Shown here: positions 1,724-14,222 of the stretch, in pieces | Layout of the letters: every line of letters begins with the position of its first letter | Numbering within the stretch: position 1 is the stretch's first letter | DNA from: Bacteroidota bacterium | GTDB lineage: Bacteria > Bacteroidota > Bacteroidia > NS11-12g > UBA955 | Length of the DNA: 19,337 bases | NCBI GenBank assembly: GCA_030836345.1 | Contig: JAURQA010000027.1 | Span: 1 to 19,337 of the forward strand | Direction of reading: 5' to 3' | Made by a program: the position numbers and the translations under genes | The notes under the pieces: generated by a model | Told to the model about the DNA's origin: nothing | Seen by the model: the letters and a program-made list of their open reading frames with translations, nothing else | Database searches by the model: none

Positions 1724-2464
1724 CTATAGTAAGATCATCATTGCATTAATATAATAGCTCTTCCGCCGATACTTTGCAGGCATTTGGCTTGATTTACTGG
1801 AGAGCAGTTCAACTAGAGAAGCATTGGTGTGTTGCTCTCTTTTCTTTTCTAGCATATAGTTTTTTGGCAGCTCCTTTAAACTGGGAGATACCTTAGAAGC
1901 AAACCAGTTTAGATGTAAAGCAGGCAATGCCACGCCTAAAATACATCCTGGTAGGCCATTAAAAGCATCAGGACCAGCTGATGGCTTTATTTGAGGACAG
2001 TAAAATGCAAAAACCTTAACCGAGTCAAAAATAACCGTAGTCGCCTGGCGGCAATTATAACCCGCAATATTTCTATGCGTATTTGTGATCGTCCAACTCA
2101 TATTACGTGTTGTATCTACTACACGAACCTTTTTGTCATAAATATCCTTATTCTCTGAATATAAAGAGTCTTTTAAATCCGTTGAAACTTGGTTTTTATT
2201 AAGTGCATATCCCCATAAACCGGGAACCCTAATATCGTTCGTATTTTCTGGGAAATACTCCGACCCATGCGGTCTAACCACCAAGTAAAATACTTCTTTA
2301 TTCTCTGCGGGAATATTAGATGCGTATTTTTTCATCCACTCATTATCCTTCATCATATTCTGGATGTACATGGTTTTTTCAAATGTTACGGTACACGAAT
2401 CCATGTATTGCGCCTGCAATCCAAATGAAATGGTCATGACTAGTAGCATTGCTATTCTTATCAT
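1724..2464 (-). CDS. GLPGLI family exported protein
   Basis: A 246-residue protein with a signal peptide (MIRIAMLLVMTISFGLQAQ) and the name-giving motif of the GLPGLI family, here GLPGCILGVAL at residues 170-180, preceded by the conserved AGYNCRQA (134-141). The family is almost confined to Bacteroidota and has no established function; it is expected in the periplasm or at the outer membrane. Its ATG overlaps the stop of the upstream plug/barrel gene by 4 nt (ATGA), so the two are translationally coupled. GLPGLI genes are recurrently found beside such barrel proteins, which argues that they act together (inference). The DUF3109 gene follows after 6 nt. Confidence 0.9.
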   Translation of the reverse strand: MIRIAMLLVMTISFGLQAQYMDSCTVTFEKTMYIQNMMKDNEWMKKYASNIPAENKEVFYLVVRPHGSEYFPENTNDIRVPGLWGYALNKNQVSTDLKDSLYSENKDIYDKKVRVVDTTRNMSWTITNTHRNIAGYNCRQATTVIFDSVKVFAFYCPQIKPSAGPDAFNGLPGCILGVALPALHLNWFASKVSPSLKELPKNYMLEKKREQHTNASLVELLSSKSSQMPAKYRRKSYYINAMMILL

Positions 2465-5304
2465 TTATGCATTCCTTTCATTCTCCCAGACTTTTTCACT
2501 GGCTTTTTATTGGGTTTAGACTTAGAAGTAGTTGACATTCCTCTCCTAGTTGACGTATTGCCCTGATTGGAACCCAAACGACTAAACCTCCAAGATAATC
2601 TAGCATAAAAATACTGAGTGAAAATATTATATGTATTTTCTGAAATGGTATTTTGATATACATTTCTGCTATACCCAATATTTTGGTTGAATAAATCGTA
2701 TACGCCAAGCTTAAATTTTACTTTTCGCTTTTTATCCAAATACCGGGCTGCGCTTGCAGAGACTATAAAACTATTGGAGTTCTGCTTAAAAACAGCATTC
2801 GTTGGTCTAATATTTTGCGTCATTTCAACTTCCAAATCAACCACTTTAGGGTTCTCATAGAATAATTCAAGATCCCAGCTTTGCATAACATTTTCATTCT
2901 CAAACTCTTTGAATACACTTGCTGTAGATTTAGAGAAATTATAGGTGTATGAGAAATTCAAACCATATTTTCCAAAGTCTAGGTCAATTCCAGGATTTAT
3001 ATTGTGGCTCCACGAATTGGTCGTATTTTCTACATCATTAATGAAATTTACAAACCGGTCATAGGAAGGGCGATACCCCATACGAACGCTTAATGGCAGC
3101 TTACCAAAATTCTTATAGTAGTTGAAATTTCCATTAAACCCATACACTCCATTTCCATTGACTGTTTGATTCACACTTCTTCCAAATTCATCATAATTTA
3201 CTTTTGAAACAAAGGCATCCTGTGTTGCAAAAAATCGTAAATTACCAAAGATATATCGGCTCTTAAATGTTCTGTTATCAAACAATCGAAGGCGAACATT
3301 ATGCGTCAATGAGTTTTTTAAATTGACATTTCCGATGTTTAAATTTATTGGATTAATATTATCAATAATTGGTTGAATCTGATTGATACTAGGGGTGGTA
3401 ACATTGGATGAATATTTAATGTTTAAATTACCTTGGGTATAATATTTATAATTAAACTCCATGGTAGGAACAAAGGTATTAATAGGATCTTGCGTAAAAT
3501 CAATCCCTCTAATTTGTTCTTTTTGATTTAGGCTTATAAAATTGTGATTTAAGCCAATCTTAAAACGAATTTTATTGCGCAACCAATTAATGCCTGTTGA
3601 GTTCACCATTCGCAGTACGGAGTAATCTGAAATGGAACTTAAGCTATCAATATAGCTGAAACTGTTTTCATTAAACGTGAATTTCTCGCTTTCCATATTC
3701 TCAATATTTGTGGTCGTTGATGCCGAAATAAAAACTTCTTTCGATAGCGGATGATTGTAGAATACTCGAGCGCTGAGGTTATCTGCCTTTCCTTTAAAAC
3801 CCTTTTTTTGTGTCCACTGATTTCTTTGGGCACCCGTATCAACAAATGTGCGCACGGTAGATTCAAAGTCTGTAGAATCCTCGTTATTTTTTATACCATA
3901 TGAGAAGTTTGCTCCAAAGTATTGATTTTCTTTTTCAAACTTTTTCCTTAAAAAAATGGAAAGAGAGACGCTCTCTGATTGTCCATTTACTTTACTCTTG
4001 CTGCTTTGCGAATTGAGAGACCGCCCATCTCCTGAAAAGCTGCTATATTCTTGAGAGCTTTCATTTTTAAGTCGATCCTGATTTGCTTTAAAACTTATTC
4101 CTATATTGGTAAAAGTATCCAGTTGGATCTCCGTGCTAATCCCAAAATCAGCCCTATTTTTAAAATTAGATACTACGTTTGAATCAAGTCTATCCAGCGA
4201 GTTGCTCTCTAACAAGCTTTTTCTTCGGTTGCTGGTTCGAGTATCCAATAACAACTCCTTATAACCTCCATTTATATTCAGACTAATTTTATTGTTGTGA
4301 AATTTATTTTGATAATAACCATAGGTCGTATTTCCTTTTGGTAAACCCTGACTATAACCCAGCCAATAATCAAAATCAGATTTTGTAAAAGTTGTCGAGA
4401 ACCCTTCGGAACTAAAAGAGGAGTTAATGCTATTCGTAAACTCTCTCTTCTCCCTCCACGAAATATTAACCTCGGGCGAATTAGCTGTAATAGCATACAC
4501 ACCAAAGCGTTCTTTCTGTCTAAAGTGATTTACAAATATTTTTCCATCATATAAAAAATCATGGTTTTCGCCCCGAGCACCTCCCGCAGTTACCTTTGCT
4601 ATCCAGCCTTTTTTGGCATTGTCCTTTAATCGAATATCCATCACTTTTAAGGTTTCTCCATCCCCAGCAGCTTTCGCATCATCCGATTGCGCGTCATATA
4701 CTTTTACCGCATCTACATCTTTGGCATTTAAGTTTTTGGTGGCAATGGTAGCATCATCTCCAAAGAACTCCTCCCCATCCACTAATACGCGATCTACATC
4801 TTTACCTTGAGCCACAATATTTCCTGAGCGATCTACCTGCACTCCGGGCAGCTTACGCAGCAAATCCTCTACGGTTGCTCCTTCAAAGGTTTTAAAGCTA
4901 TCTGCAACAAATATTACTGTATCTCCCTTCATTTGTATTGCCGCTCGCTTGGCACGAATGACAATTGCTTTCATAAGTTCGTACGATTGAATCATATTGA
5001 GCGCTCCCAAATTTTGGGACTCATTAGGCTTTAAATCAACAAAGTCAACCATATCGGCAAACTCTGGATTGGAAGCAATAATTTTATAGGAGCCGGAATC
5101 TAAATCATTAAATCTAAATTGACCGCCCGCATTAGATCGTGTAAAACTAAGCAATGTATTATCGCTCTTTCTTAATAATAAGATCGATGCATCCTCAAAA
5201 TCTGATATCCTAGAGGTGTCGGTAAGTGTCCCTGAGATAGACCCCTTCTGGGCTAATAAAGGCAAACTCGCTAAGCTCAAAAAGGCAATAAAAAATGGTT
5301 TCAT
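2461..5304 (-). CDS. TonB-receptor-like outer-membrane barrel with carboxypeptidase regulatory-like domain
   Basis: A 947-residue outer-membrane protein. In order: signal peptide (1-18, ending LLA before Q19); a carboxypeptidase-D regulatory-like Ig fold (about 21-105, GSISGTLTDT ... GSYKIIASNPEF); a plug-like domain (about 117-215) with GDTVIFVADSF, LLRKLPGVQVD and VDGEEFFGDD; then a large barrel of the OMP_b-brl_3 type. The last predicted strand is near YFYARLSWRFSRLG. The barrel is followed by about 30 residues that are very basic (KSKPNKKPVKKSGRMKGMHK), so the protein does not end on the usual aromatic outer-membrane signal. The gene starts 26 nt after purE and overlaps the GLPGLI gene by 4 nt. 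The substrate is unknown: there is no SusD partner, so sugar import is not indicated. Confidence 0.88.
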   Translation of the reverse strand: MKPFFIAFLSLASLPLLAQKGSISGTLTDTSRISDFEDASILLLRKSDNTLLSFTRSNAGGQFRFNDLDSGSYKIIASNPEFADMVDFVDLKPNESQNLGALNMIQSYELMKAIVIRAKRAAIQMKGDTVIFVADSFKTFEGATVEDLLRKLPGVQVDRSGNIVAQGKDVDRVLVDGEEFFGDDATIATKNLNAKDVDAVKVYDAQSDDAKAAGDGETLKVMDIRLKDNAKKGWIAKVTAGGARGENHDFLYDGKIFVNHFRQKERFGVYAITANSPEVNISWREKREFTNSINSSFSSEGFSTTFTKSDFDYWLGYSQGLPKGNTTYGYYQNKFHNNKISLNINGGYKELLLDTRTSNRRKSLLESNSLDRLDSNVVSNFKNRADFGISTEIQLDTFTNIGISFKANQDRLKNESSQEYSSFSGDGRSLNSQSSKSKVNGQSESVSLSIFLRKKFEKENQYFGANFSYGIKNNEDSTDFESTVRTFVDTGAQRNQWTQKKGFKGKADNLSARVFYNHPLSKEVFISASTTTNIENMESEKFTFNENSFSYIDSLSSISDYSVLRMVNSTGINWLRNKIRFKIGLNHNFISLNQKEQIRGIDFTQDPINTFVPTMEFNYKYYTQGNLNIKYSSNVTTPSINQIQPIIDNINPINLNIGNVNLKNSLTHNVRLRLFDNRTFKSRYIFGNLRFFATQDAFVSKVNYDEFGRSVNQTVNGNGVYGFNGNFNYYKNFGKLPLSVRMGYRPSYDRFVNFINDVENTTNSWSHNINPGIDLDFGKYGLNFSYTYNFSKSTASVFKEFENENVMQSWDLELFYENPKVVDLEVEMTQNIRPTNAVFKQNSNSFIVSASAARYLDKKRKVKFKLGVYDLFNQNIGYSRNVYQNTISENTYNIFTQYFYARLSWRFSRLGSNQGNTSTRRGMSTTSKSKPNKKPVKKSGRMKGMHK

Positions 5305-5330: not shown

Positions 5331-5852
5331 TTACTTGCCCATTATGTTTTTTAAGTAGTCCAAAGAATCCATGCTCTCTAACTTAGATGCTTTGTTCAAC
5401 ACTTCATTTTCCATTTTATTCTTATAAATAGAAACGCGCTGCAGTACCTCTGCATTGGAAGACCCAATAATTTGAGCCGCTAAAATCCCTGCATTTTTTG
5501 CACCGTTAATGGCTACTGTGGCTACGGGAACCCCGGGAGGCATTTGAACAATGGAGTACAAACTGTCTATACCATTCATATTCGACGATTTTACAGGAAC
5601 TCCAATAACTGGCAATGGCGAAAATGCTGCAACCATTCCGGGAAGGTGTGCCGCGCCGCCTGCTCCTGCTATAATAACAGAATAATGATGTTCATGGGCT
5701 GTTTTGGAGAACTCCACTAGCCTATCAGGTGTTCTATGTGCGCTTACTACTGTTGTATCACAGTCAATCTTGAGTTTTTTAAGCACTTTTTCAGCTTCTA
5801 CCATTACTGGTAAATCGCTATCGCTGCCCATTATTATAGCTACCTTAGTCAT
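5331..5852 (-). CDS. purE: N5-carboxyaminoimidazole ribonucleotide mutase (class I PurE)
   Basis: A 173-residue cytoplasmic enzyme that converts N5-CAIR to CAIR in purine synthesis. The family's signatures are present: the N-terminal IIMGSDSDLPVM, SAHRTPDR with the catalytic histidine, AGAGGAAHLPGMVAA, GVPVKS, and the GVPVATVAI loop. The length fits class I PurE, which needs a separate PurK to make N5-CAIR; purK is not in this window. The start overlaps the end of pssA by 8 nt, so it is read from the same mRNA as a phospholipid gene, a pairing that looks like convenience rather than pathway logic. Confidence 0.96.
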   Translation of the reverse strand: MTKVAIIMGSDSDLPVMVEAEKVLKKLKIDCDTTVVSAHRTPDRLVEFSKTAHEHHYSVIIAGAGGAAHLPGMVAAFSPLPVIGVPVKSSNMNGIDSLYSIVQMPPGVPVATVAINGAKNAGILAAQIIGSSNAEVLQRVSIYKNKMENEVLNKASKLESMDSLDYLKNIMGK

Positions 5853-6558
5853 GATTTTTCACAAAGTAATGGGATAAAAGAGATATTCCAATATACATGA
5901 AGTAAATACTTAGTCCTGCTTCTTTGGGGAATAAGGCCATGAAAGCAATAGATGCAAGCAAAAAGATCCCCTTTTGTATTTTAAAAGGATCCCCTTTTTT
6001 TATCTTAAAAGCAAACATTTCCCAATTAGAAAGCATAAAAAAAGCAAATACAAACGGGAGCAATATCATAAACTCCGTTTGGCCACCAATGGCATTGCCC
6101 AAGTTTGTCCCATCAAATAAAAAGACCATAGATGCTATGGTTAAGCCCGTTATGGGCGTGGGTACACCAATAAAACCTTGGCTTTGGCGCGTATCTATAT
6201 TAAATAAGGCTAAGCGATATATCGCCGCCAAGGGTATGGCCAGAAATACGTATTTATTTATACAAAAACCTTGGGTACTGCAATGGCCCATGGCATTCAT
6301 AAAATCCCACCAGATAAACCCAGGTAAAACACCAAAAGTAACGCCATCTGCCAGCGAGTCTAGTTGTTTTCCCAATGCTCCAGCTGCATTTACCAAACGC
6401 GCAACAAAGCCGTCAAAGAAATCAAATACGGCCGCTAGAACCATGAACCAAAATGCCTGTTCCAGCTTGCCTTCAAAAACGGCTATTATCCCAAGAATTC
6501 CGCAAGCTAAATTGGATAGCGTGAGTAGATTGGGCAGTTGTTTTAACAAGTTTTTCAT
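5845..6558 (-). CDS. pssA: CDP-diacylglycerol--serine O-phosphatidyltransferase
   Basis: A 237-residue inner-membrane enzyme that makes phosphatidylserine, the precursor of phosphatidylethanolamine, from CDP-diacylglycerol and serine. The CDP-alcohol phosphatidyltransferase motif D-x2-DG-x2-AR-x8-G-x3-D-x3-D is complete: D46, D49, G50, A53, R54, G63, D67, D71. The N terminus LPNLLTLSNLACG is typical of bacterial PssA, and several hydrophobic membrane segments follow (for example near 140-152, 164-178, 195-210 and 215-230). Phosphatidylserine decarboxylase is not nearby. The start overlaps the upstream barrel-fusion gene by 4 nt. Phosphatidylglycerophosphate synthase shares the motif, but the N terminus favours PssA. 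Confidence 0.93.
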   Translation of the reverse strand: MKNLLKQLPNLLTLSNLACGILGIIAVFEGKLEQAFWFMVLAAVFDFFDGFVARLVNAAGALGKQLDSLADGVTFGVLPGFIWWDFMNAMGHCSTQGFCINKYVFLAIPLAAIYRLALFNIDTRQSQGFIGVPTPITGLTIASMVFLFDGTNLGNAIGGQTEFMILLPFVFAFFMLSNWEMFAFKIKKGDPFKIQKGIFLLASIAFMALFPKEAGLSIYFMYIGISLLSHYFVKNHD

Positions 6559-8369
6559 AATATCAAACCTAATTTAAGAATAACCATTAAAGGGGTGGCA
6601 TACTCGTTGGTTATTTTTGGATTTCCAAATTGTTTTGCTGGCGCAGAACCATCTAAAGACCACCCTCTATTATTGATACTTAGAGGACTTGTATAATCTC
6701 CACTTAGCGCCATATATATCCCAGATCCATCGTTATATTGAAGCGTGATACCGCCGGTTAATAAAACGTCTTGTTTCCTAAAATTCGAAAGTATTTTAGT
6801 ACCAAACAAACTATCAGACCCTTTACTTCGAGTTAATTTTTGAACCGTATATAAGCCGCCAACATGAAAATCTACAGCTCCTTTTTTTCCGTTAATAAGA
6901 GCATAACCTAATTGGCCCCGAATGGCTTTTGACTTAAAGTCCATTGCCACTCTATTTCTTTGCTCTCTCCAATTACCTGCGGCCCATGAGAATCCCAATT
7001 CTGAGTTTATTCTGTGGATTAAGTTCACTCGTGCAAAAACGCCAAGATGAGGCAAAGCTCCTGCCCTAAACTCCAAACTATCTAAAGCATAAATATCTGA
7101 AATTCCTGATTGGGAAGCAAGCCATGCTTCCAGACCAAAAGAATAGGTGTTTTTCAAGCCAAAATGATTTGCTCTTTTAGTTCTCTTTTGAGAGACTTTT
7201 TTAGCAAGCATTCGGTCGTTGACCAAAGCAAAGTCGAACTGACTGGCAATGCGCGTGGGGATTCCAAAAGGCTTTAAGTTAAATAAACTTATTTTTTCTG
7301 ATGGAGCATACTTCATTAGATTACGGTACTTTTTATCATAATATTGGCTGCGATTCTTTCCATAAAACATTCCCATAGACACCGTTTTAATCCCTGGATT
7401 CTTTTGTGCAATTCGCTCCATTGTACTTTTAAACGCATACCAATCGCACTCCTTTTCAATAACGGTACGTATAGAATGACAGCGTCCAAACTGTCCGTAA
7501 AATTGCTTTTCTGGATACGCCTGAATCAAATAATTCAGTCGTTTAAACATATGTGTTTCTCGCCAATTATGTTCGAGAGGCGTATTATGATACTCCTTAA
7601 AAGTAACATACTCTTTCAAATAGCCTATTTGCTCTTTGAAAAAATCATACTCTTCACCAAAGTAGGCTTTTAATGACTGGCTTAAAGAATCGGATGTAAA
7701 AATGATTTGTTTAACACCCATCAGTGAAACTTTATAAGACCCATAATATGACTCCCCTGGTTTTGCAAAGAACTTTAAACCCGATTCCATGATTCTGTGA
7801 AATCTATAAATAGCACTATTTCTTAAGGGCTCAATGCCATTGGGAACATCTGTATTCCTATTTTCAAATAACTCCCCAATGTTCATTAGAGGGATCTCAT
7901 TGAAACGTTCCACATCGATTCCATGCGCTGTAATTTTCCGTTCAGGCACCAAAACATCATTCCATGCTTTTAATGATTCATAGAGCGTAAAATGGGAATA
8001 AGATGAACTCGCTTTTAGTTTTAATGCAGCCATGGAATCGCCTTTAAGAAATTCATTGATCAAATGGGATCGTGCCGGCCCTAGTTCAATGATATAATCT
8101 TTAAACCCATGCCGCGTATTTAATTCGTTTAGAATGGTGAAGGAAATTAAATTATTGAATGGAATGTACAAATGGTTCTCTCCAGAATAAACCACTTGCG
8201 CATTTTTACATGAATCAAAAAACGGATCCAAGCCCTCCGTTGCATTAAGCAAGCCTAATTTTACGATATTATAATCTACATCCTTTATAGCTAAATAGCG
8301 GGGCTCTTCCTCCTGAGCATACAGGTTTGTACTTAGGAATAGAACACATAAAATGAGAAGTCTTTTCAT
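6555..8369 (-). CDS. Exported erythromycin-esterase-like domain fused to a C-terminal outer-membrane beta-barrel
   Basis: A 604-residue protein with a signal peptide (MKRLLILCVLFLSTNLYA). Residues about 50-370 resemble the erythromycin esterase (EreA/B-like) superfamily. VVYSGENHLYIPFN places G63-E64-x-H66, YIIELGPARS gives E95, HGIDVE spans 149-154, NWRETHMFKRLNYL spans 268-281, and YGQFGRCHS gives H298. The order and spacing suit the family's GE-x-x-H, glutamate and late-histidine motifs. Residues about 405-604 lack enzyme motifs and alternate hydrophobic and polar residues in short strands ending MVILKLGLIL, as in a small outer-membrane barrel. It overlaps its neighbours by 4 nt on both sides. 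No substrate can be named; macrolide hydrolysis is not implied. Domain calls are by eye and the fusion is unusual. Confidence 0.6.
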   Translation of the reverse strand: MKRLLILCVLFLSTNLYAQEEEPRYLAIKDVDYNIVKLGLLNATEGLDPFFDSCKNAQVVYSGENHLYIPFNNLISFTILNELNTRHGFKDYIIELGPARSHLINEFLKGDSMAALKLKASSSYSHFTLYESLKAWNDVLVPERKITAHGIDVERFNEIPLMNIGELFENRNTDVPNGIEPLRNSAIYRFHRIMESGLKFFAKPGESYYGSYKVSLMGVKQIIFTSDSLSQSLKAYFGEEYDFFKEQIGYLKEYVTFKEYHNTPLEHNWRETHMFKRLNYLIQAYPEKQFYGQFGRCHSIRTVIEKECDWYAFKSTMERIAQKNPGIKTVSMGMFYGKNRSQYYDKKYRNLMKYAPSEKISLFNLKPFGIPTRIASQFDFALVNDRMLAKKVSQKRTKRANHFGLKNTYSFGLEAWLASQSGISDIYALDSLEFRAGALPHLGVFARVNLIHRINSELGFSWAAGNWREQRNRVAMDFKSKAIRGQLGYALINGKKGAVDFHVGGLYTVQKLTRSKGSDSLFGTKILSNFRKQDVLLTGGITLQYNDGSGIYMALSGDYTSPLSINNRGWSLDGSAPAKQFGNPKITNEYATPLMVILKLGLIL

Positions 8370-10159
8370 AGAGTACTAAAGTAAATTGAAGATGAAATGC
8401 CCAACTGAAACCCTCTAAAATTAAAAGAATTTAGATTGCTATTATGATTCGATTTTACCTTCCATTGAGGATGATAAATGGAGTTTGAAAAATATTTAGC
8501 TTCAGCTGAAATAGACCAGAAACGCAAGGGGTAAACCATGTACTGAATGCCAAGACCAAGGCTAAGTCCATTCGTTTTTGCTACCTCAACGGCATTAGCA
8601 GAAATAGGAGCTGATGAAAAGTAATTCAAATCAAAAGGGTTCACCAAAGTAGCTCTCGAATACCTCAAAGGAACGCTTAGAGAAATAGAACTGCGACCAT
8701 TTTTAGATAGAGGGATCATTCCAACGCCCCCATATTCAACATGCCTAAAGTAAAAGTCCTCCAGATTACCGGCATTGTAAAAAGACAAGTAAGCCCCTGA
8801 GTTTTGTTTTATATATCCCACAGTAAAGTGGTATCCACTGTATTGGGAAGGAACTTTTATTTGAGAGAATCCCTGAACATTTTTTGTAGAAATAGCATTA
8901 GTGATACATCCTGCAGAAACAAAAAGGCCTTGACCTATGTCACTCTCAAAGTCTTCATTGGCATTGACCTCCTTAGAATAGCCAGGATACCACACATTTG
9001 TTGTATTGAGGATGTAATGCGCACTATTTAACTCTTCCTCATCCAAGAAATCAAAATAAGAGTATATAAAGGAGTCGTTTCCATAATACTGCTCATCCAA
9101 AACCGCATCCATTGCTTTTTCAATCTCACTTAAACAAACTCCAGAAGCTTGCATTTTAGATTTATTTCGCTTCAATAAAGAGAATTGACCCACTCCTGCT
9201 AACCGTTGTGTAAATCTATTATCTGCTAATATACTTTGAACAAGGGTGGGAGATTGATAGATTGAAACATGGTCTAAGCCCCTTTTTCGTGCATTTCCAT
9301 CGAAAGCCTCTAAAATAATAAAAGCCTGCGGATCTTTTTGCCAAATATTTAGCAATGCTACTTTCTGGTTGCTGGTTTGAAAATATATATTCGCTATCTT
9401 TTCAGATGAATGATCTTCTTTTTTCAAGTTCTCTAGAGCCCCTTTAGCCTCTTTGGAATAAATCCCATACTGCCTAAGCACCCGGTCTCTGGTAGAATCA
9501 AAATAGGTGAAAATAGGTTGAACCTCTGTATAAGTCAAAGCATTATATTTTCGATACCCTTTGTAGGAACCTTCATTATTTGAATAATTAAAGTCGCGAG
9601 CAATAATTTGGGTATAGGCCGATGTAATCGCATCAAAAAATATTTGATCTTCGGGCAAAACCGTTTCTGGTGCAAACTGATGAAGCATACAGATATCTGA
9701 ATACAAACTTTTATTCCCTTTGGAAATAATTTCTAAACGGGCCCTTTCCTCTGAATCTAAAACCTGGTTGAGCTCCTTTAAAAAGGGCATCTTTACATAA
9801 TCTAAATAGTCTTCAATAAAACTCTCATCTGCAAGCTCCCCCTGCACAATGGCATTTAAAATAACTGCCGATGAATGTGAAAAATCTTCAATGAGCCATT
9901 TTACTCTTTTACCACTTTGCAATACGCGCACGATGAGATTTCCCTCATAGGCATCTAATACATTCATGTAGTTTGTAACATACCCATTGTAATTAGTAAT
10001 CAGGTCATCAAATGAATGGGGTTGAATTACAGAAGAATCCAATTCCTCATTTGCATTGCTACTAACCTGAGCACTGGTGCTTGAACCCCATTGCGCATGC
10101 ATAGTAGACATCACAGTAAATGCAAACAACAAACAAAACACATATAGATTCGATTTCAT
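8366..10159 (-). CDS. Exported protein of unknown function: degenerate esterase-like domain plus C-terminal barrel
   Basis: A 597-residue protein with a signal peptide ending in MHA-Q. Residues about 50-400 look helical and mixed; residues about 410-597 consist of short alternating strands ending FQLGISSSIYFSTL, typical of a small outer-membrane barrel. I found no family match by recognition. Compared by hand with the next gene's product, G59 to E91 has the same 32-residue spacing as its G63 to E95. WLIEDFSHSS...IVQGE parallels YIIELGPARS...FLKGD, and LKELNQVLDSE (127-137) parallels LKAWNDVLVPE (133-143). The GENH motif is GYVT here and no late histidine follows, so it would be a catalytically dead relative (inference). 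It begins 21 nt after yicC and overlaps the next gene by 4 nt. Confidence 0.55.
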   Translation of the reverse strand: MKSNLYVFCLLFAFTVMSTMHAQWGSSTSAQVSSNANEELDSSVIQPHSFDDLITNYNGYVTNYMNVLDAYEGNLIVRVLQSGKRVKWLIEDFSHSSAVILNAIVQGELADESFIEDYLDYVKMPFLKELNQVLDSEERARLEIISKGNKSLYSDICMLHQFAPETVLPEDQIFFDAITSAYTQIIARDFNYSNNEGSYKGYRKYNALTYTEVQPIFTYFDSTRDRVLRQYGIYSKEAKGALENLKKEDHSSEKIANIYFQTSNQKVALLNIWQKDPQAFIILEAFDGNARKRGLDHVSIYQSPTLVQSILADNRFTQRLAGVGQFSLLKRNKSKMQASGVCLSEIEKAMDAVLDEQYYGNDSFIYSYFDFLDEEELNSAHYILNTTNVWYPGYSKEVNANEDFESDIGQGLFVSAGCITNAISTKNVQGFSQIKVPSQYSGYHFTVGYIKQNSGAYLSFYNAGNLEDFYFRHVEYGGVGMIPLSKNGRSSISLSVPLRYSRATLVNPFDLNYFSSAPISANAVEVAKTNGLSLGLGIQYMVYPLRFWSISAEAKYFSNSIYHPQWKVKSNHNSNLNSFNFRGFQLGISSSIYFSTL

Positions 10160-10180: not shown

Positions 10181-11062
10181 TTAAACAATGTTCATCACTT
10201 GCTCTTTAATTTGTTCCAAACGCTCCTTAACCTCAACTATAAGCTGTTGAATAGCAAAATAATTGCTTTTCACCCCAAGTGTATTAGATTCACGATTCAT
10301 TTCTTGATTGATGAAATACAATTTTTTACCCGAATTAGGTAAGGCCATTGTTTCCCTAAAATAGTTTAAATGTTGTGCGAGTCTCACCTTTTCCTCGGAA
10401 ACATCCCACTTATCTAAATAGTGCAGTAACTCTTGTTCAAATCGCGTCTCATCTATTTTATCCATATCCACATGTTGGGATAAATGTCCGTACATTTTTT
10501 CCTTCAGCGCTTCTTTTCGTGGCCCCTCGTGCTCTTTTATCTGTTCCAAACGTTCTTCAATGGCTTCAATATTTCCCAACAAATCATCGTGAAGTACTTT
10601 TCCCTCCGTTTGTCTAAAATCGACCAATTTATGGGCAGCAGCTAAGGCACAATCAATAATAAGTTTACGTGATTCATCTGAATATCCCGCTTCATGTGTT
10701 TGAATGATTTCCGGCATATTTGCAATTTGCCCAAACAAATCTGGGCTCTTTAAATCTAGTTCTTTTTCCAGAGCCAAAAATTCGTCATTGTATTTACGCG
10801 CCAAACTTTTATTTACAGATATATTCTGTGATAGGGTACTCGGCTTATTGACAATATTGAATACCAAAACCACAGAGCCTCTCACCAAAATGGAAGAAAC
10901 CCTCTTGCGAATTTCCACATCAATCTCATAAAGATGTTTGGGAAGTCGAATATCTAAATCAATAAATTTTCCGTTCAATGAACGCATTTCACACTCAACG
11001 GCAATCTCATCATTGTCCATAGTGGACTTTCCAAAACCCGTCATACTCTGCACATTAATCAC
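10181..11062 (-). CDS. yicC: YicC/YloC-family endoribonuclease-like protein
   Basis: A protein of up to 293 residues matching the YicC family, whose E. coli member is an endoribonuclease acting on RNA. The N-terminal hallmark SMTGFGKS and the C-terminal DUF1732 region are present: EQELLHYLDKWDVSEE, RLAQHL, KLYFINQEMNRESNT and the glutamate-rich end. The assigned start is GTG at 11062; a GTG at 11053 (giving MQSMTGFG) or the ATG at 11044 are alternatives, and the family's usual M-x-x-SMTGFG opening suits 11053 well. In many Bacteroidota yicC is followed by gmk and nadD; here an unknown exported protein follows instead. The promoter overlaps that of the divergent peptidase gene. Confidence 0.92.
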   Translation of the reverse strand: MINVQSMTGFGKSTMDNDEIAVECEMRSLNGKFIDLDIRLPKHLYEIDVEIRKRVSSILVRGSVVLVFNIVNKPSTLSQNISVNKSLARKYNDEFLALEKELDLKSPDLFGQIANMPEIIQTHEAGYSDESRKLIIDCALAAAHKLVDFRQTEGKVLHDDLLGNIEAIEERLEQIKEHEGPRKEALKEKMYGHLSQHVDMDKIDETRFEQELLHYLDKWDVSEEKVRLAQHLNYFRETMALPNSGKKLYFINQEMNRESNTLGVKSNYFAIQQLIVEVKERLEQIKEQVMNIV

Positions 11063-12813: not shown

Positions 12814-12821
12814 TATATTTG
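12814..12821 (+). promoter_or_regulatory. Predicted -7 box upstream of the vWA-like gene
   Basis: TATATTTG is a perfect TAnnTTTG match 9 bp after bshB1. A clear TTG -33 element is not seen at the right distance. The predicted start near 12827 gives a leader of about 49 nt to the ATG at 12876. A TTG inside this box could be read as a start codon (12819), which I reject. Confidence 0.35.
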
Positions 12822-12875
12822 GAATGTATGACGTATAAAATATACGGGCGAAACCTTACGTTATATCTATGTTAC

Positions 12876-14222
12876 ATGCGCAAAATTGCCATCATATTAC
12901 TTCTTACACTTTTCACGGTTGAGGCCAGAGCAGACGAGATTGATCGTTTGATGCGCTTAAGGCCCTCGCATATTCCTTACCTTCCCTATCGTAAGTCCGA
13001 TAATATAGCATACTTGCAAACGCCTTTTTCTAAAGCACAAATAGTCAGAGAAATCAATACAGAAATCTTAAAAAATAAAGAGAGAATACATGCCATTCAC
13101 TTGGTATACACTCGATTTAAAGAGGTGGACAGCTTTAACCAGCCTAGACTCAACTATTTTAGGTTTAAGGAATTAGAGAAAAAATACCCTGAACTTTTTA
13201 AATTAAAAAAAGTACACTGGAAAGTACTGGAACAACACAAAGCAAAAACAAAAAAAACCGCCAGTAATTACTTTCATGGGTTTGTGATTTATTTAAAAAA
13301 TGAAATCCCAACCAAGCGAATTGAGTCGACACTTACCATTGTGGAGGATATTTTAGACTCCTACAAAGACTCCATTATTGTGATTCCTCCAAGCCGCAGG
13401 ATAAAAGTAAAACGGAGGCGTATAGGAACCGGCATTTATTATCCCAGGAGCAATGCAAAGCGCAAGAAAGGAATCACGTATTATAAGCCCGGCATTTGGG
13501 GCCGAAGAGAAAAAACATACCTCAAAAAAGATACCACTGTTCTCTGGGAAGTACCAGAGAAACGAATGAACATAGGTTCTTTTAATACGCAGAATTTAAA
13601 AAACATTGATGTCTATAGAACCTTACAAAAAATTCCGAAAGGAAAACACCCTATTGTAATAACAGATATTACCGGCTCTATGGCACCTTATAGTGCGGAG
13701 GTTATGCTTTGGGTAAAAAACCAACCGCGCATGAGGCACGATGCACGATTTATCTTCTTTAATGATGGAAATAATGAACCAGACCACTATAAAAAATTAG
13801 GGAAAACTGGAGGGATTTACCAGAGCAATAGTACTAATTACGACAGTATTTTTAGCTGCATGAGAAAAACCATGCTGCTCGGACAAGGAGGTTTGCCTCC
13901 TGAAAATTATTGTGAAGCCATCATGAAAGGCATTCAATGGTATCCAGATACGGACACCGTTATTGTAGTTGCAGATATGAATGCTTCGGCCAGTGACATA
14001 TTATTGGCCTCAAAAATAAAGAAGCCGGTAAATATTATTCTTGCTGGGGGTCAAGAAAAAATGAGCGTTCCTCAAGATTATACAGAAATTTGCTCCTTAA
14101 CTGGCGGCTATCTATTCTTTAAAGGGCTTCGCATAGATCCTAAAAAAATAAAAAAACAGAATAGGACATTCTTGGGTTCCTCTTACGTTATAAAAAAAGG
14201 CGGAAGGATTGAGAAAATTTAG
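12876..14222 (+). CDS. Exported von Willebrand factor A-like protein
   Basis: A 448-residue protein taken from the ATG at 12876, because the protein then opens with a proper signal peptide (MRKIAIILLLTLFTVEARA); the open frame continues back to 12819 but would add 19 residues before it. Residues about 20-250 are a conserved-looking basic region that I cannot name. The C-terminal half is vWA-like: VITDITGSMAPYSAEV carries the MIDAS D264-x-T266-x-S268, FIFFNDGNN follows at 292-300, GQGGLPPENYCEAI (336-349) matches the GGGDxPE loop of this group, and VIVVADMNAS (362-371) gives a late aspartate. Such domains bind proteins through a metal ion; the partner is unknown. It is presumably periplasmic. 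Confidence 0.75.
   Translation: MRKIAIILLLTLFTVEARADEIDRLMRLRPSHIPYLPYRKSDNIAYLQTPFSKAQIVREINTEILKNKERIHAIHLVYTRFKEVDSFNQPRLNYFRFKELEKKYPELFKLKKVHWKVLEQHKAKTKKTASNYFHGFVIYLKNEIPTKRIESTLTIVEDILDSYKDSIIVIPPSRRIKVKRRRIGTGIYYPRSNAKRKKGITYYKPGIWGRREKTYLKKDTTVLWEVPEKRMNIGSFNTQNLKNIDVYRTLQKIPKGKHPIVITDITGSMAPYSAEVMLWVKNQPRMRHDARFIFFNDGNNEPDHYKKLGKTGGIYQSNSTNYDSIFSCMRKTMLLGQGGLPPENYCEAIMKGIQWYPDTDTVIVVADMNASASDILLASKIKKPVNIILAGGQEKMSVPQDYTEICSLTGGYLFFKGLRIDPKKIKKQNRTFLGSSYVIKKGGRIEKI

Follow-up and report, generated by a model that had tools for sequence, protein, structure and literature searches.

A catalytically stripped twin encoded beside an Ere-type outer-membrane protein in Bacteroidota: a probable pseudoenzyme partner

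Introduction

Ere-type enzymes have mostly been described as soluble esterases that act on macrolides. Enzyme-pseudoenzyme pairs, in which an active copy and a paralogue without catalytic residues are kept together, are also known; none of them is known to carry an outer-membrane barrel or a domain of the Ere type.

We describe two coupled genes of a Bacteroidota bacterium, A and B. The closest known proteins to B are those of the erythromycin esterase family, namely EreC (PDB 6xcq/6xcs), the B. cereus structures 3b55/2rad/2qgm and PF05139. The likeness of B to the ChaN/Tiki superfamily (PF04187; C. jejuni ChaN, PDB 2g5g) is weaker than that to EreC; ChaN has no barrel, unlike B, and B has no clear sequence-level membership of ChaN/Tiki here. 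OmpA, OprF and OmpW are small outer-membrane barrels, whereas the barrel of B comes after an Ere-like domain and forms the C-terminal end.

Results

The A-B locus

The window is the whole stretch of DNA that was analysed (19,337 nucleotides, contig JAURQA010000027.1). The two long minus-strand open frames lie where the preliminary description had placed them, between two flanking genes:

10181..11062, minus strand: yicC-like gene for an endoribonuclease, flanking the locus upstream (Pfam YicC-like N and C)
8366..10159, minus strand: gene A (597 aa), twin of B with almost no catalytic residues left
8366..8369, minus strand: ATGA shared by the stop codon of A and the start codon of B (read from the sequence)
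6555..8369, minus strand: gene B, 604 aa, EreC-like domain then barrel
5845..6558, minus strand: CDP-alcohol phosphatidyltransferase gene, pssA-like, downstream flank (Pfam CDP-OH_P_transf)

The yicC-like gene is separated from the start of A by 21 bases, and the pssA-like gene follows B with a 4-base overlap. The neighbours yicC and pssA are housekeeping genes and tell little about the substrate. Elsewhere in the window (1724-5304), a large OMP_b-brl_3 protein, which also bears a carboxypeptidase-regulatory-like domain, is followed by a Porph_ging family protein; their genes share a 4-base overlap and form a second coupled envelope pair. At 12819-14222, no Pfam family matched the encoded 467-aa protein at E 0.001.

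Protein B

Residues 30-395 of B form a domain with an EreC-like fold and residues 403-604 a well-modelled barrel of the 8-stranded type. The motifs are G63-E64-N65-H66, E95, GIDVER (150-155), RE (270-271) and GQFGRCH (292-298). G63, E64, H66, E95, R270, E271 and H298 are invariant in 24/24 rows of the B family, which comprises the 24 matches listed, B itself among them. B reads GENH, with Glu and His two apart, compared to GENTH in 2qgm and GEATH in 2rad; in a sequence alignment, H66 is one position off the histidine of 2qgm. A Pfam scan of B gave no match at E up to 10, and B does not reach the curated PF05139 score. PF05139 was matched by 10 of the 24 family members at E up to 0.1, the best at 4.1e-7. 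The NCBIfam EreB model scored 14.3 bits on B against a cut-off of 750, and a PDB sequence search with B reached EreC at E 0.074. One B homologue (L199, genome G073) is broken into several parts separated by stop codons and is apparently decaying or badly assembled.

Recurrence of the twin upstream of B

The survey of the order covered 108 genomes. The B profile matched 77 of them; the twin profile, by which B is detected as well, matched 74. Neighbourhoods were tabulated for 73 of the 77 B-matching genomes, those represented by fragments only being omitted (G035, G059, G063, G091). The twin profile had been built from 18 twins of the same or overlapping loci, and A of the window was placed among the twins on the strength of the B profile and its position, not of the twin profile. 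A motif-less twin lies directly upstream of B in 40/108 genomes, the window included; the bacteria that share the pair are uncultured relatives. Among the 77 genomes with B, 40 have a twin, 28 have none and 9 are undecidable (G015, G035, G059, G062, G063, G073, G078, G086, G091).

Counting the window, twin and B are separate genes in 39 pairs. Their distance is -4 bases in 24 pairs and falls between -94 and +4 in 14, where long overlaps are partly due to picking the longest frame; in one pair (G088) a masked stretch lies between them. The gene yicC is upstream of the twin in 34/40 genomes (four of the other six are at a contig end and two have different genes), and pssA is downstream of B in 39/40. 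Some twin loci have an extra small gene between yicC and the twin. The ATGA overlap and this recurring upstream position bear out the coupling of A to B proposed in the preliminary description.

By the test that the preliminary description had set, the survey counts against its proposal: the genes do not always occur together, and B is common on its own. In the 28 B genomes with a non-twin neighbour upstream, this neighbour is on the opposite strand in 10 and on the same strand in 18, with B-profile scores of at most 24.3. A named collection, which shares many genomes with the order set, holds 46 B loci; 12 have a twin, one is cut off upstream, and 33 of the 45 judgeable loci have no twin. Thus, B does not need a twin in every lineage. 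Two loci (L033 and L035, in G002 and G023) read yicC-B-pssA without a twin, so the flanking order is independent of the twin. Upstream proteins of about 712 aa in several genomes of a second family (G053, G045 and G067, and G049 and G061, both cut) were considered and rejected as twins; by eye they are DPP4-like peptidases, and they have no B-profile match. No twin without B was seen in the 108 genomes, a count from profiles that an A-like twin far from B would escape.

Loss of catalytic motifs in the twins and in A

GE[NS]H and GQFGRCH are kept in 34/34 B rows. E64, H66 and H298 occur together in 0/22 twin rows and 0/5 A rows, the column assignment being uncertain for the most diverged twins. 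The loss is graded: twin L022 reads GENF with GQFSMCH, and other twins keep single pieces. A plain motif search found GE[NDS]H and GQFGRCH in none of the twin frames; this search was itself filtered on these motifs, which, compared with the neighbourhood table, dropped only the fused twin described below. The twins of G033 and G004 (contig edges) and G088 (masked) are not fully judgeable.

Protein A begins with a stretch that looks by eye like a signal peptide, followed by an Ere-like domain at about 46-330, assigned by profile, and a diverged barrel-like C-terminal domain at about 405-597. It has no equivalents of E64, H66, R155, R270-E271 and H298. In the profile alignment with B, given below, A has a gap opposite E64-N65-H66 and N289 opposite H298. 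The GE-x-H motif and the late histidine are absent, as first described. The catalytic-motif columns of B are empty or changed in 5/5 A rows. A is very probably a pseudoenzyme of B's kind.

It is rather unlikely that A has been neofunctionalised, working alone with another active site or ligand pocket and coupled to B through shared regulation only, and yet several observations point in that direction. D92 of A, invariant in 5/5 A rows, pairs with E95 of B; with an acidic residue kept at this position, the site of A is not wholly erased. In the parts of A picked at the catalytic loops of B (56-66, 90-98, 144-155), identity to the distant relative P0006 is 56%, compared to 37% over residues 46-330. 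This excess was considered as a sign of a conserved former active site, but it is suggestive and not significant (0.058, random placement). B is also common without A, as described above. Against a twin that works alone, no twin was seen without B, and one genome fuses the twin to the enzyme.

This fusion is found in G016 (L056:2287-5581). An uninterrupted frame of 1098 residues, running up to the contig end, encodes a twin and then a GENH domain. The barrel-like part of the twin ends at about residue 716, about 130 residues more follow, and GENH is at 845. By eye, there is no signal-peptide-like stretch between the twin and the GENH domain. In G004, of the same genus, the two are separate genes and B has its own signal-peptide-like start; that G016 lacks this start speaks against a simple sequencing error. 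A second G016 contig (L061) carries a 502-residue frame with GQFGRCH, followed by pssA. L056 and L061 together would give two barrels in one predicted polypeptide. The fusion is seen in one genome only and is split by the contig end.

Homology between A and B

Direct BLASTP of A against B gave no match, and the two are 13% identical in the large alignment. Profile comparison detected what BLASTP did not. Using hhalign, the A family (5 rows) matched the B family (24 rows) with a probability of 96, an E value of 3.2e-9 and a score of 77.6, and the 541 aligned columns are collinear from end to end. Sixty column-shuffles of A scored at most 24.9, and reversed A scored 21.9. The N domains alone scored 48.2 (60 shuffles at most 21.8) and the C domains alone 42.3 (60 shuffles at most 21.6), with the C domain of A aligned to the barrel of B. 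Crossed A and B domains scored just 8.6 and 13.6. The 450-1000 aa proteins encoded in the window and in L022-L107 were each run as a single sequence against the B profile; among them, enzymes, twins and A scored at least 38.6 (A 50.0) and every other protein at most 30.1. As judged from these profiles, A is an extremely diverged paralogue of B: both of its domains show significant homology to those of B, in the same order. This profile-profile comparison, proposed in the preliminary description, agrees with the shared layout noted there.

The residue pairings of the preliminary hand alignment fared unevenly. IVQG pairs with FLKG and LNQVLDSE with WNDVLVPE, so the parallel pieces largely hold. 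G59 and E91 of A and G63 and E95 of B, taken there as equivalent pairs, exist as residues, but the pairings fail: G59 aligns with V59 and N63 of A with G63 of B, a four-residue gap in A lies opposite E64-N65-H66-L67, and E91 aligns with I94, with D92 opposite E95, in which the large MAFFT alignment agrees. Since both key pairings fail, the equal 32-residue spacing is no evidence of homology.

The single-chain model of A is poor (pLDDT 42), and the strands of its C domain are present only in this low-confidence model. Modelled from an alignment without B, A gave a weak EreC signal, with the same helix/strand order through about residue 285. A Foldseek search with the A model had no hit that reached E 0.001; an unrelated VTC protein came first and an Ere relative second, at E 0.07. 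The sole Pfam/NCBIfam hit of A, PF22125, was under its cut-off (17.2 vs 26 bits) and was set aside, as was the single row of a PDB sequence search, Cas12m at E 0.22. Given the poor model and the lack of a significant Foldseek match, the fold and barrel of A rest on profile homology. Of the barrels first described on both proteins, that of B is well modelled and that of A is predicted by homology.

That A is unrelated to B, with a convergent layout of signal peptide, helical domain and beta-rich tail, is highly improbable. It would fit the missing BLASTP similarity, the 13% identity and the failure of any twin to match A at E 0.01, but the collinear match on both domains beats the shuffle, reversal and unrelated-protein controls, and A occupies the position of detectable twins.

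Descent and selection

The tree was built from 56 rows (34 B, 17 twins and 5 A; five twin rows were left out). One branch (92/97) parts all 34 B proteins, including enzymes from twin-less lineages, from the 17 twins and 5 A rows. As A sits inside a twin group, no branch sets the twins apart on their own. The place of A is weak (75/86) and long branches were flagged; its position beside one twin group was read as a meeting of long branches and not used. In the order search, the profile of 18 twins did not reach A, the single row for G000 being B, and BLASTP of the twins against A gave no match at E 0.01. Hhalign of A against small twin groups gave probabilities of 0.1-15, two groups joined gave 17, and all twins joined gave 95, on the C-terminal domain. 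These sequence links are weak; the case for A as a twin is carried by its position between yicC and B.

A search of about 5.8 billion proteins gave four relatives of A with E values up to 1, and a profile search returned the same four; they are 570-592 aa long, with 33-95% identity. Among 57 relatives examined, A was found in one, its own genome, and a protein search of the sister genome G001 (70% complete) found neither A nor B.

Across 19 genomes, the twins resemble each other less than their partner enzymes do in 170/171 pairs. Twin and partner-enzyme distances are correlated (rho 0.70), which the shared ancestry of the genomes explains too. Seven pairs of twins other than A were tried for Nei-Gojobori dN/dS, and two were saturated in dS; the other five gave 0.06, 0.16, 0.22, 0.14 and 0.30, near the 0.10-0.18 of four B pairs measured alongside. 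Twins other than A are under purifying selection. That A is a decaying duplicate whose function is gone would suit the greater divergence and the lost motifs, but it is the least probable reading and is largely refuted for the twin family by these ratios and by full-length frames; the lengths and identities of A's relatives also speak against it.

Discussion

We favour the view that A is probably a conserved pseudoenzyme partner of B, an outer-membrane Ere/ChaN-type hydrolase. A and B would come from one exported ancestor that carried an erythromycin-esterase/ChaN-type domain and an outer-membrane barrel. Both barrels are predicted to be embedded in the outer membrane, and the Ere-like domains of A and B to lie in the periplasm. 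The substrate of B may be an envelope or periplasmic molecule in which it hydrolyses an ester-type or related bond. A may pair with B, stabilising it, gating its active site or holding the substrate.

The frequent overlap, the co-occurrence and the one gene fusion favour an A-B complex, although 4-base overlaps also join genes whose proteins do not touch. We propose only tentatively that A and B form a physical heteromer. Such a heteromer, which would be a single polypeptide in one lineage, might, equally tentatively, join a live Ere-type domain to its dead paralogue, both barrel-borne, with the dead half gating the live half or presenting substrate to it on the inner side of the outer membrane.

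Dozens of Bacteroidota genomes join an Ere-type fold to an outer-membrane barrel, and within one family a dead copy is often kept adjacent to this enzyme. The twins form a graded series, from GENF in place of GENH to barely detectable resemblance, which lets the formation of a pseudoenzyme be followed. They also offer a defined pair in which dead twins can be tested as outer-membrane partners, and the unit of an enzyme and a dead partner is a testable idea. Compared to the erythromycin esterase family, B adds an outer-membrane barrel and A is without the family motifs. As in enzyme-pseudoenzyme pairs in general, an active copy is kept beside a catalytically stripped paralogue.
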